A stretch of DNA of 32,965 bases from Candidatus Methylumidiphilus alinenensis (GTDB lineage: Bacteria; Pseudomonadota; Gammaproteobacteria; Methylococcales; Methylococcaceae): positions 1 through 32,965 of the forward strand of contig QJPH01000331.1 of assembly GCA_003242955.1 (NCBI GenBank). Reading direction: 5' to 3'. A program made the position numbers and the translations under genes. This document shows, piece after piece, positions 18,345 through 30,772 of the stretch; position 1 is the stretch's first letter, and the number at the start of each line of letters is the position of its first letter. The notes below the pieces were generated by a model. The model ran no database searches. It was not told the origin of the DNA and saw nothing but the letters and a program-made list of their open reading frames with translations.

Positions 18345-20903
18345 ATGAAGACTAGTCATTTTAATCTGCTCCATTTTTTTAACGCTAATGTCAGGTTTTT
18401 CCTGGCATTTGTCCTTGTGGTTTTTGGCAGTTCAATCGCATGGTCGAATGCCCCGCCGGACGAAGCTTATGATAGGCTATCAGGCCACGTCCCTGTGCAA
18501 CATATCAAAAATTCGGCATTGCTTGGGCAAAAGTCATCGTCTGATAGCGTGCCGATGACCGTGGTTTTGCGATACCCCAACGAGGCTCAATTAAACTCTC
18601 TGTTGAGTAAACTCTACGACCCGCTAGACCCGTCATACGGGCATTTCTTAACCACCCAACAATTCACCGATCAATTTAGCCCGAGTCAGAGCGATTACCA
18701 AGCCATCCAAAGCTATTTCAAATCGCAGGGCTTCACGGTAGCCGGAATTCATTCCAATCGCTTGGTATTGAATGTTTCCGCGCCCGTAGTGACGGCTGGG
18801 CAGGCATTCAATGTCCAATTTAATGAATATGCACAAGGTTCCAGGCATTATTATTCCGTAGACCGGGAACCCGCGTTGCCTCATTCGGTGGCGGCCAAGA
18901 TTTTGCACATAGCGGGTCTGCAAAATGCCAATGTCTGGCATAAACACGCCGTGCCGCTGTCACCCTATCAATCCATGGGCGTCACCCCTAATCAAGTGGG
19001 GACTGGCCCTAATGGCGGTCTACAGCCGAGTGACATTGCATCCATCTACGAACTGAATTCGGCTGCTCTCCCAGCGTCAAAAGGTTTAGGGCAAACGATA
19101 GGGCTTTTTGAACTGGATGGGTTTGCCGGCAGTGATATCACCGCCTATGAAACAAAATTTGGCTTGCCCAAGGTGCAACCTACCACCGTGCTGATTGATG
19201 GGTTTAATGGCAAACCAGGCTCTGGCGCAGACGAGGTGACGCTAGACATCGAGCTGCAGATGGCGGTTGCCCCCTCGGCGAAAATAATCGTCTATGAAGG
19301 GCCGAATTCGGGCGCGGGTGTCATAGACACCTACCAGAAAATTGCGACTGACAACCTAGCCAAGCAAATCAGCACCTCATGGGGCTTATGCGAGAATTAT
19401 TCTTCTTCCGGCACGTTGACGGCAGAAAATGCCATATTCAAGCAGATGGCGGCCCAAGGGCAATCCATCTTTGCAGCCTCCGGGGATTCCGGCGCTTATG
19501 ATTGCGGTGGGACGAGCATGCTGAATGTGGATGACCCTGCCTCGCAACCCTATGTGGTGGGCGTCGGCGGCACTTCGCTCAAACCCGGCTCAGGTGAGGT
19601 GTATTCTTCTGAATCTGTCTGGAACACCTCTTCCACAGAAGGCGGTGGCGGTGGTGTCAGTACCTTTTGGGCTTTGCCGTCTTACCAAGCCAATATTCCG
19701 GGATTGGCATCAATCAAATACCGCAATGTGCCTGATGTTTCGCTGGATTCCGATCCCTACACGGGTTATGCCATTTACTCTGGGGGTGCGTGGCAGATTT
19801 ACGGGGGAACAAGTTGCGCCGCCCCCATTTGGGCAGCGTATACCGCCATCGTCAATCAGCAACGGCAAGCCAACGGTAGTTCAGCGCTCGGCTTCTTGAA
19901 TCCAACCCTCTATACGCTTGCACAAACAAGTAGTTATAGTGCTGATTTCCACGACATCACAACGGGGAATAATAACCACTACTATGCCGCCATTGGTTAT
20001 GACAATGCAACAGGCTGGGGAAGCTTCAACGGGCTTTCGCTATTCTATGATTTGGTCGCAGGACCCAGCAGGTCTGCAACCAGCACGACCTTGGCCTCTA
20101 GCGCCAACCCGTCCGGCTACGGGTCTGCGGTGACGTTCACCGCCACCGTGACCGGCAGCAGCCCGACGGGGACTGTGACCTTCATAGACGGCACGACCAC
20201 CCTAGGAACCGGCGCTGTCAGCAGCGGCAAGGCAACATTCGCAACATCCAGCCTCACCGTCGGCACCCATGGCATCACCGCAGCTTACAGCGGCGACACG
20301 AAAAATAATGCCAGCACCAGCACCGCCTTGACCCAGACGGTCAATAAGGCGGCGACCAGCGCGGCACTGGCCTCCAGCCTTAACCCGTCGGGCTATGGGT
20401 CTGCGGTGACGTTCACCGCCACCGTGACCGGCAGCAGCCCGACGGGGACAGTCACCTTCAAAGACGGCACGACCACCCTAGGAACCGGCGCGGTCAGCGG
20501 CGGCAAGGCAACGTTGGCAACATCCAGCCTCAGCGCCGGCGCCCATAGTATCACCGCAGCTTACAGCGGCGACACGAAAAATAATGCCAGCACCAGTACC
20601 GCCTTGACCCAGACGGTCAATAAGAAGGCGACTACCGCCACGGTGGTTTCAAGCAAAAACCCATCCGTTCGCGGGACTTCGGTGACGTTCACCGCCACGG
20701 TGACAGGCAGTAGCCCGACGGGGACTGTGACTTTTAACGACGGCACTGCGAAGCTAGGCACTGGTGTCTTATCGACCAGTGGTAAAGCCACCTACGCAAC
20801 CGCTACGCTGGCGATAGGAACTCACAAGATCACCGCAAGCTATGGCGGCGATACCAACAATGCGACAAGCGTTAGTGCGGCATTGAGTCAGGCGGTGAAA
20901 TGA
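18345..20903 (+). CDS. Secreted sedolisin (S53, pro-kumamolisin) protease with three Ig-like repeats
   Basis: The 852-residue protein has a signal peptide (cleavage near residue 35), a pro-kumamolisin activation domain (about 45-200) and an S53 serine-carboxyl catalytic domain (about 225-570). The catalytic residues are E297 and D301 (GADEVTLDIE), oxyanion D381 (AASGDSGAYDCGG) and S490 (GGTSCAAPIWAA). The calcium site appears as FHDITTG and GYDNATGWGS. Three bacterial Ig-like domains of about 92 residues follow. It should be an exported endopeptidase working at acid pH. GGAGGA lies 8 bases before the ATG. Repeats one and two are nearly identical at DNA level. It stands alone between repeat-filled gaps. 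Confidence 0.93.
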   Translation: MKTSHFNLLHFFNANVRFFLAFVLVVFGSSIAWSNAPPDEAYDRLSGHVPVQHIKNSALLGQKSSSDSVPMTVVLRYPNEAQLNSLLSKLYDPLDPSYGHFLTTQQFTDQFSPSQSDYQAIQSYFKSQGFTVAGIHSNRLVLNVSAPVVTAGQAFNVQFNEYAQGSRHYYSVDREPALPHSVAAKILHIAGLQNANVWHKHAVPLSPYQSMGVTPNQVGTGPNGGLQPSDIASIYELNSAALPASKGLGQTIGLFELDGFAGSDITAYETKFGLPKVQPTTVLIDGFNGKPGSGADEVTLDIELQMAVAPSAKIIVYEGPNSGAGVIDTYQKIATDNLAKQISTSWGLCENYSSSGTLTAENAIFKQMAAQGQSIFAASGDSGAYDCGGTSMLNVDDPASQPYVVGVGGTSLKPGSGEVYSSESVWNTSSTEGGGGGVSTFWALPSYQANIPGLASIKYRNVPDVSLDSDPYTGYAIYSGGAWQIYGGTSCAAPIWAAYTAIVNQQRQANGSSALGFLNPTLYTLAQTSSYSADFHDITTGNNNHYYAAIGYDNATGWGSFNGLSLFYDLVAGPSRSATSTTLASSANPSGYGSAVTFTATVTGSSPTGTVTFIDGTTTLGTGAVSSGKATFATSSLTVGTHGITAAYSGDTKNNASTSTALTQTVNKAATSAALASSLNPSGYGSAVTFTATVTGSSPTGTVTFKDGTTTLGTGAVSGGKATLATSSLSAGAHSITAAYSGDTKNNASTSTALTQTVNKKATTATVVSSKNPSVRGTSVTFTATVTGSSPTGTVTFNDGTAKLGTGVLSTSGKATYATATLAIGTHKITASYGGDTNNATSVSAALSQAVK
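20080..20620 (+). repeat. Near-identical 276-bp coding repeats (Ig-like domains 1 and 2)
   Basis: Long blocks such as TTCACCGCCACCGTGACCGG and CAGCTTACAGCGGCGACACG recur 276 bases (92 codons) apart. A third, more diverged unit follows to 20903. The low divergence suggests recent duplication or gene conversion. Confidence 0.8.
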
Positions 20904-21234: not shown

Positions 21235-21413
21235 TTCCCACGCGGGAGCGTCACTGCCATTAAGTTAAGAAAAAGCGCGTCGTTCCGGCAGGGATCGCCG
21301 GAACCTAGGCTCCATGGATGGTATAGATTGTCGGCATCCCTGCAATCTGGATTCCGGCGGTCCATGCCGGAATGACGGCTTAACTTAATGGCAGTGACGC
21401 GGGAGCGTGGGAA
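21235..21413. repeat. Composite element: outer ACTGCCATTAAGTTAAG repeats around a 102-bp unit
   Basis: The left end (21235-21269) and right end (21379-21413) share TTCCCACG and CGTCACTGCCATTAAGTTAA in inverted orientation. A 10-bp inner block, CGCGGGAGCG, is flipped between them. Nested inside is one 102-bp palindromic unit (21277-21378). The same outer ends occur at 28854-28889 and 29108-29145 around different contents. Confidence 0.75.
21277..21378. repeat. 102-bp palindromic unit, intergenic copy
   Basis: The ends are GCGTCGTTCCGGC and GCCGGAATGACGG. It is closely related to the two copies inside the STAND-FGE gene and the same length. Read leftward it would encode RHSGMDRRNPDCRDA and, after a variable stretch, PWSLGSGDPCRND. 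Confidence 0.9.
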
Positions 21414-21569: not shown

Positions 21570-24500
21570 TCACGACTGAACTCGGGCGCAACGAAAGCCA
21601 GTGCCGTAGTCGCGGCCGACGGGGACGACGTAGTTACGGTACGCAGAACGGCAGTTCCACGCGTGGAAGTCCCAGGACCCGCCGCGAACCACACGGGCCG
21701 CGCCAGCAGTCGATACCGTCACGTCATTGGGATCGTCGTAGGTGTTCAGGCACCATTCCCATACCGTCCCGGACAGGTCCAACACCCCTGATACCGAAAC
21801 TCCGCCTGGATACATCCCGACCGCTGTGGCACGGCCCAAATCGCTTTCGTAGCTATTCGTCCTCCAAGGCTCTTCGGCTGGGTTCCAATCCTGACCCCAT
21901 GGGTAGGTTTTTGGTGGCGGTGAATCAGGGTTCTTGCCGTCGTTCCGGCAGGGATCGCCGGAACCTAGGCTCCACGGAGGGCTTGGATCGGTGGCATCCC
22001 TGCAATCTGGATTCCGGCGATCCATGCCGGAATGACGGTTTATTCCCCCTATCGCCGCCAACTGCCATTCAAACTCCGTCGGCAGCCTAACCTCAAACCC
22101 TAGCCGCTCACTAAGCCAATGGCAGAAACTAACGGCATCATACCAATTGACCGAATCTGCCGGGTGGTTGCCATGCCGTGCCCGGTGCTTGGGCGGGGAG
22201 TAAGAATCCGGCAAATTGAACGGCAGACCCGGAGGCAACCGCCACTGCTGGCCGTCATGGCATTCCCGAACAAAGGCTTGGAACTGGGCAAGCGTTACTG
22301 GATAACGGGCCAACTGAAACGCACCGACCTCGCGGGTCAGGGTTTTGATAATCTCCGAATCCGGTTTATTGACATCGGCGCGGATTTCTATCGTCACTTC
22401 GCCGCCTTGTATCGGCATCCAGTCCATGTCCGGCAGGCCGTCTTCGCGCAAGCCCACGCCCTTGCGCGGGTCGCCTAAACGGTCCAAGCGCACCCCGATC
22501 ATCGCCCTGCGTTCATGGCTGGTTTTTGGCAACTCGATTGCCTGCAACATGTCCGCTGGGTCTACGGGACCGAGAAATTCCTGTTCCATCGCCGGGAACT
22601 GTTCCAGCCTCAACCCCAAATGCGCCAACATCTGCGCCACTTCCACAATCCGCTCGTCGGGCCAGCGATGCTCATCGCGGCGTTGATGGGCATCCCAATA
22701 GGCCGCCAGTTGGGTGATCTGCCGCCGCAGCCGGTGGTCGTCGGCGGTTTGTGTCACCCAATCGGCGAGTTTGCCCCAACTTCTAAACAGGGCTTCATGG
22801 GCCACCTCGATGGTGGCTGTGTCATCATCCTCACGTTTGTCAGTGACCAATAGCCGCGCCTTGGTTAGCGCATTGATTAGGGTCAATGCGTTTAAATTAA
22901 GGGGTTCCCCGTCGTTCCGGCATGGACCGCCGGAACCTAGGCTCCATGGACGGAAAGGCTCCGAGGCATCCCTGCAATCTGGATACCGGCGATCCCTGCC
23001 GGTATGACGGCTTGACCCAGTAGTCAACTCGCTGAGTTTAGCGCGGCGGCGGGTGGGTTCGCCGCGTTCGTCCACCTCGACCAATTCGCGGAACACCTCG
23101 GTGAACGTGGCTTGGACTTCGGGGGCAAGCTTGGCAAAAACGGCATCTGCATGTTGGCCTATGGACCCTTGGACCTTGCCGGATTCCTCGTAGGCGGCAT
23201 AAGTCAACAGCCCTGCTGCCGTTCTTTTTTGGTAAAGCCGCTCCAACGCAAAGGCCAGCAATGGCAATGCGCCGGGTTCTTTGCCGGCATCGCCGAGTAT
23301 GGTTTCGTCCAAGCCTTGCTCGAAGGCCAAGCCAGCCAGCGCGGCCGGACGAATGACCATTTGCTGCAATGCGCCCAAACCCGGGGCAGCCAACGGGTAA
23401 GAGCCGGTGCGCAACACGTCCGCCAGACCATGCTCCACGCATTGCGCATAGAAATCCGCCCGCACACTGACAATCACCCGTACTTTGGACGAACCCGACG
23501 CAGCCAGCACGAAACGGACAAACGCTTGCCTACAATCATCCTTGACGACGGTGAACAGTTCTTCAAACTGGTCGATGAATAGCAACAGTTCGGCGGAGTC
23601 GGGACGGTTTGCCAAGACCAGCCGCACTAAACCATCCAAGCGTCCCGGGGCTAGCAATAACTCATCGGCGAATTCGCGCGCCGTCTGCCCCACGGATTCT
23701 AAAGCCGTTTTCCAACACGCCGCCAAACTGATGAATGGATTATCGCCCAACTCCCCCGGCGTGAAGCGCACCCAGGCCCAATCGGCGCTGCCTTGCAACG
23801 CACCGCCCAGCAATCGGGGAATCAACCCGGCCCAAACCAGCGAGGACTTGCCGGACCCAGACGCACCGACCACGGCGATGAACCTGTGCTTTGGGTCGCG
23901 CAGACGGGCCAGCAGTTCGTCGGTTTCCCTCCCCCGGCCAAAAAAGATTAGTGAGTCTTTGTTGGTGAATGGGCGTAGGCCGAGGAATGGGGAGCCAGTC
24001 CATATTGGGTCATGGTTTGAGACCGACTTAGGTTTAGAAACCGAGTCGGTCTGGGCTGGCTGCGTAGCGAGTGAATCCAATCGCTGGCGGACGATGTCCT
24101 TCAGATGTTGCCTCAACGCTTCTTCAAAATCGCTAGGGATATTGTAATCGTTAGGGATGGAACCGTCGCGAGTGCGGCAAGCTTGCAGGAAATTATCGAC
24201 TTGCTCCACGTTGGCCAACTGGTCAAGGTAGGCTTGCTTCTGCTTGGGCGACACTTTGCAAACCGGTTCGTCAACCCGGTGGTAAACCAACACGGGGGGC
24301 CGTTGCCGACCCGAGGCTTCAAAGGCTAGTACGGCGTTGTGGTATTCCCATTCGGTCCCGGTGTAAAAGCCTCCGTCCGGTTTGGCATAGTCGGGCTGTG
24401 CTATCGGCGAACCGAGGCGCGACCAAAGGCAAATCACCACAATGTCGCAGTCGGCGGGCTTGCCTAAGCTGCGGATGACGGATTCTTGCGCGGGTAGGCC

Positions 24501-24695
24501 GGCCCACATCACCGCCCCGGCCTGTGGATGGTCCCATGCCACGGCCTCGAAAGTCACCCGGCCCCGCAACAAAGGGTCATAGGGTAGCTGGTTCAACACT
24601 TTCAAGGCCAATTGGCGTTCGTCGTTGACATCGCCGGGGGAACCCAGAAAAACCCGCAGATGCAGCGGTTGCTTGGCGGTGGCGGTGGTTGGCAT
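21570..24695 (-). CDS. DUF4062-nSTAND NTPase-FGE/SUMF1 protein with two in-frame repeat insertions
   Basis: The 1041 residues hold four parts. A DUF4062 domain (about 12-130; LRVFLGSPGDVNDER, TGTEWEYHNAV) is TIR/SEFIR-like. An nSTAND1 NTPase (about 235-500; PFLGLRPF, FFGRGRE) has Walker A GASGSGKSS at 277-285 and Walker B LLFIDQFEEL at 371-380. A helical region (VEVAHEALFRSW type) follows. An FGE/formylglycine-type C-type-lectin domain lies at about 756-1038 (GAFQLARYPVTLAQF, RLPTEFEWQLA, YPWG, RVVRGGSW, GFRCAR). Such architectures belong to STAND sensor or effector conflict proteins. Residues 563-596 and 887-920 are repeat-encoded insertions, both in loops. AAGGA precedes the ATG by 8 bases, and a TATAAT lies at 24738-24733. 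No neighbour gene shares its strand nearby. Confidence 0.88.
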   Translation of the reverse strand: MPTTATAKQPLHLRVFLGSPGDVNDERQLALKVLNQLPYDPLLRGRVTFEAVAWDHPQAGAVMWAGLPAQESVIRSLGKPADCDIVVICLWSRLGSPIAQPDYAKPDGGFYTGTEWEYHNAVLAFEASGRQRPPVLVYHRVDEPVCKVSPKQKQAYLDQLANVEQVDNFLQACRTRDGSIPNDYNIPSDFEEALRQHLKDIVRQRLDSLATQPAQTDSVSKPKSVSNHDPIWTGSPFLGLRPFTNKDSLIFFGRGRETDELLARLRDPKHRFIAVVGASGSGKSSLVWAGLIPRLLGGALQGSADWAWVRFTPGELGDNPFISLAACWKTALESVGQTAREFADELLLAPGRLDGLVRLVLANRPDSAELLLFIDQFEELFTVVKDDCRQAFVRFVLAASGSSKVRVIVSVRADFYAQCVEHGLADVLRTGSYPLAAPGLGALQQMVIRPAALAGLAFEQGLDETILGDAGKEPGALPLLAFALERLYQKRTAAGLLTYAAYEESGKVQGSIGQHADAVFAKLAPEVQATFTEVFRELVEVDERGEPTRRRAKLSELTTGSSRHTGRDRRYPDCRDASEPFRPWSLGSGGPCRNDGEPLNLNALTLINALTKARLLVTDKREDDDTATIEVAHEALFRSWGKLADWVTQTADDHRLRRQITQLAAYWDAHQRRDEHRWPDERIVEVAQMLAHLGLRLEQFPAMEQEFLGPVDPADMLQAIELPKTSHERRAMIGVRLDRLGDPRKGVGLREDGLPDMDWMPIQGGEVTIEIRADVNKPDSEIIKTLTREVGAFQLARYPVTLAQFQAFVRECHDGQQWRLPPGLPFNLPDSYSPPKHRARHGNHPADSVNWYDAVSFCHWLSERLGFEVRLPTEFEWQLAAIGGINRHSGMDRRNPDCRDATDPSPPWSLGSGDPCRNDGKNPDSPPPKTYPWGQDWNPAEEPWRTNSYESDLGRATAVGMYPGGVSVSGVLDLSGTVWEWCLNTYDDPNDVTVSTAGAARVVRGGSWDFHAWNCRSAYRNYVVPVGRDYGTGFRCARVQS
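21591..21681 (-). other. Possible DGR variable region in the FGE terminus
   Basis: Between RVVRGGSW and GFRCAR, residues 1009-1031 use 17 codons ending in C out of 23, with varied first and second bases (for example GAC, TTC, CAC; later TAC, GTC, GGC). This is what adenine mutagenesis of AAC codons in a template repeat produces. Position, fold and the downstream hairpin agree with known diversity-generating-retroelement targets. No reverse transcriptase or template is in the window, so this stays a hypothesis. Confidence 0.45.
21937..22038. repeat. 102-bp palindromic unit inside the FGE domain
   Basis: The ends CCGTCGTTCCGG and CCGGAATGACGG bound 102 bases (34 codons) lying in frame. It encodes residues 887-920 (RHSGMDRRNPDCRDA, then PPWSLGSGDPCRNDG) between AAIGGIN and the YPWG motif, a surface loop of FGE folds. 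The sequence is very close to 21277-21378. Confidence 0.92.
22909..23010. repeat. 102-bp palindromic unit inside the STAND region
   Basis: The ends CCGTCGTTCCGG and CCGGTATGACGG bound 102 bases in the same reading phase as the other intragenic copy. It encodes residues 563-596 (RHTGRDRRYPDCRDA, then RPWSLGSGGPCRNDG) between RRAKLSELT and LINALTKARLLV, which adjoin in relatives of this family. The flank TTTAAATTAAGG may be a relic of the outer TTAAGTTAA ends. Confidence 0.92.
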
Positions 24696-24849: not shown

Positions 24850-25204
24850 CATCAATGAAACAATTACTTCGTCAATATCGTGCGAAACCACCTATTTTGG
24901 CACAGAACCGGCGATCTAAGGGCCAAGCTGGAGCTTGGCGCTCCCCCAATAAGGGCCAAGCTGGGGCTTGGCGCTCCCCCAATAAGGGCCAAGCTGGGGC
25001 TTGGCGCTCCCCCAATAAGGGCCAAGCTGGGGCTTGGCGCTCCCCCAATAAGGGCCAAGCTGGGGCTTGGCGCTCCCCCAATAAGGGCCAAGCTGGAGCT
25101 TGGCGCTCCCCCAATAAGGGCCAAGCTGGGGCTTGGCGCTCCCAATGGGAACGCCAAGCCCCAGCTTGGCAAGGGTATTGGCGAAAGTATTGTGAAAATT
25201 GATG
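24850..25204. repeat. MITE-like element expanded by a 33-bp tandem array
   Basis: The ends near 24850-24880 and 25175-25204 are imperfect inverted repeats (CATCAAT, ACAAT-ACTT-CG-CAATA). The interior matches the compact element at 18091-18225 but has seven tandem cores instead of one, closed by an inverted core (25149-25170). Bases 24696-24849 hold only the likely promoter of the STAND gene. Confidence 0.75.
24918..25148. repeat. Seven tandem copies of a 33-bp unit
   Basis: Units begin at 24918, 24951, 24984, 25017, 25050, 25083 and 25116. Each carries the hairpin GCCAAGCTGGGGCTTGGC (or GCCAAGCTGGAGCTTGGC) followed by GCTCCCCCAATAAGG. Since 33 is divisible by three, several frames stay open on both strands; these are artefacts. 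There are no spacers, so it is not CRISPR. Confidence 0.95.
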
Positions 25205-28729: not shown

Positions 28730-28853
28730 TAGAGGGGGCAATACCCCAGATGCAGTTCAATAACTGATGTTAAGCAAACGTTAAGGCCGTAGCCCGGATG
28801 GAGCCGCTTGCGGCGTAATCCGGGTTTTTGCCACGTTCTCCCGGATTTGTATC

Positions 28854-29145
28854 GTTCCCACGCTCCCGCGTGACTGCCATTAAGTTAAGCCGTTCGTGGT
28901 GAGCCTGTCGAACCATGAACGGCTTAACTTCCAACATGTTGGGATTTTCCGTCCACCCTTCGACAGGCTCAGGGCGAACGGAAAATCCTTAACTTAATTT
29001 GGAAATGTAGGAGCCGCACCCTCGCGGCGATTGGGATTAAGACTGCTTTTCCAAGTATTCAGTCGCCGTGAGGGCACGGCTTCCACGAATCACGGTCCAA
29101 CCTACCCCTTAACTTAATGGCAGTGACGCAGACCGTGTGAACGAT
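28854..29145. repeat. Nested composite element with ACTGCCATTAAGTTAAG ends
   Basis: The outer ends TGACTGCCATTAAGTTAAG (28871-28889) and CTTAACTTAATGGCAGTGAC (29108-29126) match those of 21235-21413. Inside are three different hairpins. One is CCGTTCGTGG-ATGAACGG (28890-28922). Another contains CCTTCGACAGGCTCAGGGCG (28945-28985). The third is built on AGGAGCCGCACCCTCGCGGC and its inverted counterpart GCCGTGAGGGCACGGCTTCC. Each junction sits at a TTAACTT-type sequence. Confidence 0.65.
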
Positions 29146-30608: not shown

Positions 30609-30660
30609 TTCAAAAAACCTTTATCGTTCCCCTGCTTTGCGTCAATGCCATCAAGTTAAA

Positions 30661-30762
30661 CCGTCATACCGGCATGGATTGCCGGTATCCAGAACACAGG
30701 GAGGTGAATCTAGCCCGCCCTCGATGGCATATGGGTTCCGGCATTCCCTGCTGGAACAACGG
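30661..30762. repeat. 102-bp palindromic unit, diverged copy
   Basis: The ends are CCGTCATACCGG and CTGGAACAACGG. The length is again 102 bases and one frame stays open across it, reading RHTGMDCRYPEHRE and later WHMGSGIPCWNNG. A partial AATGCCATCAAGTTAAA outer end precedes it. Confidence 0.75.
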
Positions 30763-30772
30763 GTACTGCACT

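Follow-up and report, generated by a model that had tools for sequence, protein, structure and literature searches.

Two short repeats in the genome of Candidatus Methylumidiphilus alinenensis have the same outer ends and enclose unlike inner palindromes. They raise the question of what these ends are, what moves them, and how different palindromes came to lie between them. The stretch in which they lie, hereafter the window, comprises 32,965 nucleotides of contig QJPH01000331.1 (assembly GCA_003242955.1). An earlier note on this DNA had described the shared ends around different palindromes, and direct reading of the window finds both copies where they had been placed. The note had also described the copies as joined at TTAACTT-like sequence. 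This sequence is real, but it is the inner part of the repeat's own ends and not a target.

The sequence ACTGCCATTAAGTTAAG makes up the greater part of a terminal inverted repeat (TIR) of 18 bp that bounds a miniature transposon, S1. The full TIR reads CACTGCCATTAAGTTAAG at the left end, with the reverse complement at the right end. The word TTAAGTTAA, found five times in the window where 0.18 occurrences are expected (five were reached in 0 of 100 shuffles), is part of the S1 element, whose target is often a hairpin repeat. The left copy in the window, at 21252-21396, is complete: it is 145 bp long, with perfect TIRs, and its target is the 11-12 bp directly outside the ends, present as a perfect 12-bp duplication. 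Its features, those of the second copy and those of the decayed copies are given in Table 1. The same window contains an open reading frame at 18345-20903 that matches a pro-kumamolisin activation domain and Big_3_5 Ig-like repeats, with 276-bp tandem repeats at 20076-20764, and a large one at 21570-24695 with an nSTAND1 NTPase domain and an FGE-sulfatase domain. At 24917-25147, a class C REP hairpin (GCCAAGCTGGGGCTTGGC) lies within a tandem array with a period of 33 bp.

Table 1. Features of S1 elements and their cores in the window
Feature	Position	Strand	Remark
Left target duplication ACGCGGGAGCGT	21240-21251		Half of a CCCACGC..GCGTGGG hairpin repeat; identical to 21397-21408
Left TIR of S1 element, CACTGCCATTAAGTTAAG	21252-21269	+	0 mismatches
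Core A1, CGTC-tagged REP dimer with A-rich linker	21270-21378	+	Class A, the core of 36 of the 67 full-length S1 elements examined
Right TIR of S1 element	21379-21396	-	0 mismatches
Right target duplication ACGCGGGAGCGT	21397-21408		Equals the left duplication
A core without recognizable shell	21938-22038	+	Core match
Decayed S1/S3-like end with A core	22884-23010	+	4 mismatches to S1
Left flank ACGCTCCCGCGT	28860-28871		Half of a target hairpin; no match to the right flank
Left TIR of F-type S1 element	28872-28889	+	One mismatch, at the first base
Core F, two hairpins (CCGTTCGTGG..ACGG and GATTTTCC..GGAAAATC)	28890-28987	+	92% match to class F
Truncated internal TIR CTTAACTTAAT	28988-28998	-	Presumed fusion junction, between two different cores
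Core G palindrome (TAGGAGCCGC..)	28999-29107	+	Complete S1 element with core G in a same-genus genome
Right TIR of G-type S1 element	29108-29125	-	0 mismatches
Right flank ACGCAGACCGTG	29126-29137		Flank reading
Decayed S1 element	30643-30764	+	TIR with 3 mismatches and A2 core; no recognizable right TIR

The earlier note had proposed a genome-wide listing of the junctions. Run on the whole assembly (6.57 Mb in 597 contigs), it gave 280 matches to the S1 17-mer at up to two mismatches, compared with 0 for the reversed-pattern control. Across 81 merged stretches (214.5 kb), 168 S1 ends at up to four mismatches formed 73 pairs and left 23 ends unpaired. S1 has the form of a MITE, with 67 full-length pairs of 115-150 bp, 18-bp TIRs at up to four mismatches (mostly 0), and no transposase gene. 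Duplications of 11-12 bp at up to one mismatch flank 49 of the 67 copies (35 exact and 14 with one mismatch), while random pairing of left and right flanks resulted in a mean of 3.3 and a maximum of 9 in 2000 shuffles. The other 18 have no clear duplication. Sixteen of the copies come from a search requiring exact ends and a gap of 85-115 bp; without these copies, chosen for perfect ends, duplications are found in 37 of the remaining 51, which come from 100 listed of the 280 places plus two from the exact-TIR search. The duplications differ between copies. A hairpin of the form CCCA[CA]GC..GC[GT]TGGG flanks S1 on at least one side in 43 of the 67 copies and on both sides in 25. For 32 of the 49 duplication-bearing copies, an uninterrupted related site was found in an 833-kb sample of the genome (40 kb of each of contigs C1-C20, and the window). 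The same-genus genomes gave no clean pair of occupied and empty sites, with only one side per locus aligning well.

To which repeats do the cores belong? The 67 elements fall into six core classes (A with 36 copies, C with 20, F with four, D and E with three each, and B with one), which show no similarity to one another at the thresholds used. Core A is a palindrome with a CGTC tag arranged as an inverted dimer (CGTCGTTCCGGC...GCCGGAATGACG), i.e., a CGTC-tagged REP dimer, and core B is a REP dimer with a GTAG tag (both tags as described in PMC3733652). The 36 class A cores include 33 identical pairs at different places, which suggests recent spread. In the 833-kb sample we found 59 cores at a coverage of at least 85%. 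Its 26 A cores have S1, S2, or S3 ends (up to five mismatches) on both sides in 18 cases, on one side in six, and on neither in two, while a random-place control with any of five end types gave both sides in 3 of 3000 and one side in 59 of 3000. The S2 ends are unlike those of S1, and one of four S2 pairs has an exact 8-bp duplication. By our own count, the S3 ends have 13 of 18 bases in common with S1; of four S3 pairs, one that encloses another core is flanked by an exact 11-bp duplication. An A core that lies between ends of the S2 type shares 99% identity with the A1 type seen in S1. In the same sample, the 15 B cores have SX ends on both sides in three cases, on one side in five, S1 together with SX in one, and no recognized end in four; the 11 E cores have S5 ends on both sides in three cases, on one side in four, and none in two. 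S5 (GTGCGATTAAAAGTGATG) is a further shell around class E-like cores, seen in this genome (G000) at C8:18994-19119 and C18:5000-5127.

The second repeat of the window, at 28872-29125, contains two cores, F and G, and had been taken as a repeat nested within another. Between its flanks, ACGCTCCCGCGT and ACGCAGACCGTG, 7 of 12 bases differ, and its internal end is truncated; because of this, we infer that it consists of two S1 elements fused by deletion or recombination. That one repeat family inserted inside another at TTAAGTTAA to produce this composite appears improbable. Such insertions have precedents, since SX lies inside S1 ends in this genome and S2 inside three S1 copies of Methylotuvimicrobium buryatense. 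However, the composite has a single truncated internal end rather than an inserted element with two ends, its outer flanks differ, and each of its halves matches a core class known from complete, separate S1 elements at other loci: four complete S1 elements at other places in the genome have a class F core, and a complete S1 element with core G (146 bp, exact 11-bp duplication ACCCGATGCCT) occurs in the same-genus genome G026 (L341). We thus set nested insertion aside for this locus. A first reading of another locus (L342) as core G in an SX shell was also rejected, as inspection by eye showed that the SX ends face outwards and that the adjoining S1 end is truncated. An incomplete SX-like element lies upstream of the composite, at 28764-28843. 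It consists of the left part, whose sequence CTGATGTTAAGC differs from the SX end by one base, together with a class B REP bearing the GTAG tag, and it breaks off just before the target hairpin of the composite.

The idea of preferred insertion of one family into another, which lacks support at 28872-29125, finds it elsewhere: S1 lies in hairpin repeats, and other miniature elements insert within the S1 end, at TAACTTAA or TTAAG. In this genome, an SX element sits within an S1 end at both C74:8073-8362 and C20:10633-11019. Both interrupted S1 pairs keep an exact 11-bp outer duplication, and the SX insertions have repeats of their own, a 7-bp TTAAGGG at C20 (computed) and an 8-bp TTAAGCAC at C74 (by eye). 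In M. buryatense, S2 elements of 229-231 bp lie in three S1 copies (L362, L366, and L370) with the 8-bp TAACTTAA on both sides. The site is always the same, S2 is found in both orientations, and the copies differ in orientation or in the S1 end hit; therefore, they are not all copies of one composite. In a fourth copy, only one end is visible. For the SX and S2 cases, the earlier note was right.

The same ends are found well beyond this genome. The exact TIR is present in at least 112 stretches of public genome contigs and, among the matches listed, occurs in Methylomonas, Methylotuvimicrobium, Methylobacter, Crenothrix, Thiotrichaceae, Beggiatoa, Thioploca, Thiomargarita, and Legionella; the titles of a few records name other phyla or classes (80 of the 112 are titled). 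This set is not purely composed of other genera, as at least one stretch (L309) carries the same IS left end as the same-genus genome G027. The 112 stretches gave 80 pairs once nested outer pairs were removed. Of these, 78 are under 420 bp, and the two longer ones are a Crenothrix IS and a 1017-bp pair in L229. Duplications at up to one mismatch flank 46 of the 78 small pairs, against a mean of 1.0 and a maximum of 5 in 1000 shuffles.

What lies between these ends is diverse and mostly palindromic. The 71 strict public elements (at most two mismatches in both ends) form 44 core clusters, as set by blastn thresholds that distant relations may escape. Strong self-complementarity (fold z below -3, median -6.6) is found in 36 of the 44 cluster representatives, one per cluster, and in 1 of 88 controls of the same length from the same loci; the other eight clusters are not strongly self-complementary. 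When the 80 titled loci were folded separately, the counts were 29 of 38 against 4 of 76. All folding applied RNA energy parameters to DNA letters. In M. buryatense 5G, we inspected the best 30 of 40 reported matches to one CGTC core: S1 ends (up to five mismatches) flank 27 of them, 18 on both sides and nine on one, and are absent from three. These counts have no random control, and the query comprised the core with its linkers, so that copies with an S1 shell may rank first.

We then asked which transposase could recognize these ends. The earlier note had pointed to an active transposase acting in trans, for example a REP-associated Y1 enzyme. A transposase acting in trans is indeed the likely mover, but it would be of the DDE type and the IS4 family, not Y1, and its active status finds no support in this draft assembly, where we found no complete transposase with S1 ends, only a remnant (a TIR with one mismatch and residues 3-108, at 67% identity, with one TGA). 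A search of the genome with PF01609 for the owner of the S1 ends gave nine matches, none near an S1 end at up to four mismatches; the owner came through relatives. The exact S1 TIR is present in 9 of 38 genomes of the family. In genome G006 (L072/L085), an IS of 1396 bp has an open reading frame of 427 aa between S1 ends, with one mismatch on one side, and is flanked by an exact 11-bp duplication, CGGCAGAGCCG. Its relative in Crenothrix polyspora (1400 bp, 62% identical, open frame of 432 aa) has the same ends, with at most one mismatch, and an exact 11-bp duplication, ACGCTCTGCGT. The G006 protein is above the cut-offs of PF01609 and NF033592, and both proteins match the latter, the curated model of the IS4 family, with 162.9 bits (G006) and 165.7 bits (Crenothrix) for a cut-off of 115. 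Residues D109, D190, and E299, as well as Y292/R295/E299/K306, are invariant in all five aligned proteins, with the spacing of the IS4 family. These two IS provide the parental element with the same ends that is expected for a MITE, and direct repeats of about one helix turn, as expected for IS4, are found both around them (11 bp) and around the S1 MITEs (11-12 bp).

Other relatives are more varied. The one in Methylomicrobium sp. wino1 carries a TAG in frame and lacks a duplication. Three have ends starting with CAATG (G005, G022, and G023; CAATGCCGTTAAGTTAAG), with a duplication of 10 bp in the G022 relative (L087) and none at L095 and L088. Thus, of these four relatives, whose ends are the same as those of S1 or similar to them, a single one shows a duplication, of 10 bp. 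The same-genus genomes G026 and G027 contain pieces of IS with exact TIRs at contig edges.

Taken together, these data point to S1 as, very probably, a non-autonomous element of the MITE type that is moved in trans by an IS4-family DDE transposase, with the REP dimers as its passengers. The transposase, encoded by its own IS with the same ends, would recognize the 18-bp TIRs of S1, cut there, and paste the shell with whatever core lies between them; REP dimers, including the CGTC-tagged ones, would simply ride along. The cores might have entered by insertion of a REP into the shell, by capture between two ends, or by recombination between shells. Their self-complementarity may mean that REPs are the sequences most commonly captured, or that hairpins aid the synapsis of a very short element. 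The persistence length of DNA is around 150 bp, and a hairpin core might bring together the ends of an element near or below this length. A broader proposal, which we regard as tentative and rather doubtful, is that this is a general-purpose IS4-type shell, mainly of Gammaproteobacteria, that has captured unrelated palindromes repeatedly, with hairpins favored for synapsis, and that CGTC REPs have spread largely in this way.

Could the REPs instead have been spread by Y1 transposases, with the outer ends being incidental? The genome has five matches to Y1 transposases, two of them with an internal stop, and REPs of class B, C, or E are next to the gene at four of the five: class B REPs flank two loci on either side, and one of these loci contains a TAG; C REPs lie upstream of a third locus and E REPs upstream of a fourth, which also contains a TAG; and the fifth locus has no REPs. 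Hence, same-class REPs beside a RAYT gene, the mark of REPIN/RAYT systems, are found for classes B, C, and E and not for class A. Scoring of the five loci with NF047646 covered the genes of C67 and C355, which are REP-associated tyrosine transposases above the cut-off (187.6 and 89.7 bits). In addition, a RAYT-like open reading frame of 154 aa (L014, 1629-2093, contig C8), at 25.2 bits and thus below the family cut-off of 80, sits between two S1 class A elements and adjoins an S1 end that has a class C core but no right end. All this would favor amplification by Y1 enzymes. Yet no S1 end was detected at the five Y1 loci, where we found only REPs, and no Y1 locus has class A on both sides, although L202 has an A fragment around 430 bp downstream. 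Elements of the IS200/IS605 family are described, in the available part of PMC2817692, as having neither TIRs nor larger target duplications, whereas S1 has both. Finally, the same ends hold 44 unrelated core clusters in public genomes. We therefore rejected a Y1 or REP transposase as the owner of the outer ends, and consider it very unlikely that amplification by such enzymes explains the repeats. Least plausible of all is that the two window copies share their ends by descent from one ancestral composite: copies within a class are nearly identical, as the identical class A pairs show, but the core classes lack similarity at the thresholds used, the duplications vary from copy to copy, and S1 ends occur in many genera with other cores.

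The reading of S1 as a MITE moved by an IS4-type enzyme can be compared with known systems, here as far as the excerpts of the cited papers go. The IS4 family is described with a D(60~110)D(100~150)E spacing, a Y(2)R(3)E(6)K motif, and direct repeats of 10-13 bp (PMC2266710). The S1-ended IS resemble its IS4 subgroup in their DDE and YREK residues with the family spacing and in the length of the repeats, and some members of the family prefer target arms, as S1 does. The subgroup ends, -AATR--------WTW----, fit the CAATG-ended relatives, whereas S1 begins with CAC and is off at position 3. The S1-ended and related IS, of 1378-1400 bp, are as long as or slightly shorter than the lower bound of the 1400-1650 bp listed for the subgroup (PMC2266710) and, unlike its members, most S1 copies are shells of 80-320 bp without a transposase gene. 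The IS231/MIC231 cassettes (PMC2266710) are similar in having IS4-family ends, exchangeable passengers, and repeats of 10-12 bp. However, S1 departs from the IS231 ends (CAT-------AA--TAA---), matching them at seven of eight positions and having C instead of T as the third base; in the same source, IS231 is described as nearly exclusive to the B. cereus group, with genes as passengers, while those of S1 are short palindromes.

REPs within other repeats have been described before. Dimers of REPs lie inside palindromic flanks in A. variabilis and H. neapolitanus (Di Nocera 2013, PMC3733652), and small palindromes of T. roseum likewise contain GTAG-23 elements. The same work describes IS that target REPs and states that CGTC REPs have no dedicated transposase. 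Its GTAG and CGTC REPs resemble our cores, with core A starting with CGTC and core B with GTAG. Its flanks are given, in the available sections, neither a transposase nor a target duplication, whereas the S1 flanks are transposon ends with duplications. MITEs with palindromic interiors are already known, as is a REP inside a MITE: the QMITE2 of Coxiella (PMC5896051) contains a GTAG REP. It has repeats of 7-11 nt, and the part of its description at hand mentions no set of unrelated cores in one shell. The hupL MITE of Thiomargarita (PMC4853749) has a 19-bp inverted repeat and a 10-bp direct repeat that share one base, and no parental IS was found for it; S1 ends occur in Thiomargarita contigs, and since the two were compared by description, their identity is a lead only. 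Among the matches listed for the TIR strings in open-access main texts, there was only a 13-mer, in human and animal papers. In the open-access literature, we found no case of one IS4-type end pair that encloses many unrelated REP-type cores in different genera, and no vehicle for CGTC REPs.

Our analysis suggests that the two repeats of the window are tiny IS4-ended transposons, which would provide a route for the spread of palindromic repeats without a known transposase of their own. How CGTC REPs move was left open in Di Nocera 2013 (PMC3733652), as far as its available text goes, and now becomes a testable question: the presence of CGTC dimers within transposon ends with exact duplications provides a candidate transposase family and a cultured host, M. 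buryatense 5G. The dozens of unrelated hairpins found within the same ends also raise the question of whether hairpin cores help very short transposons to join their ends.
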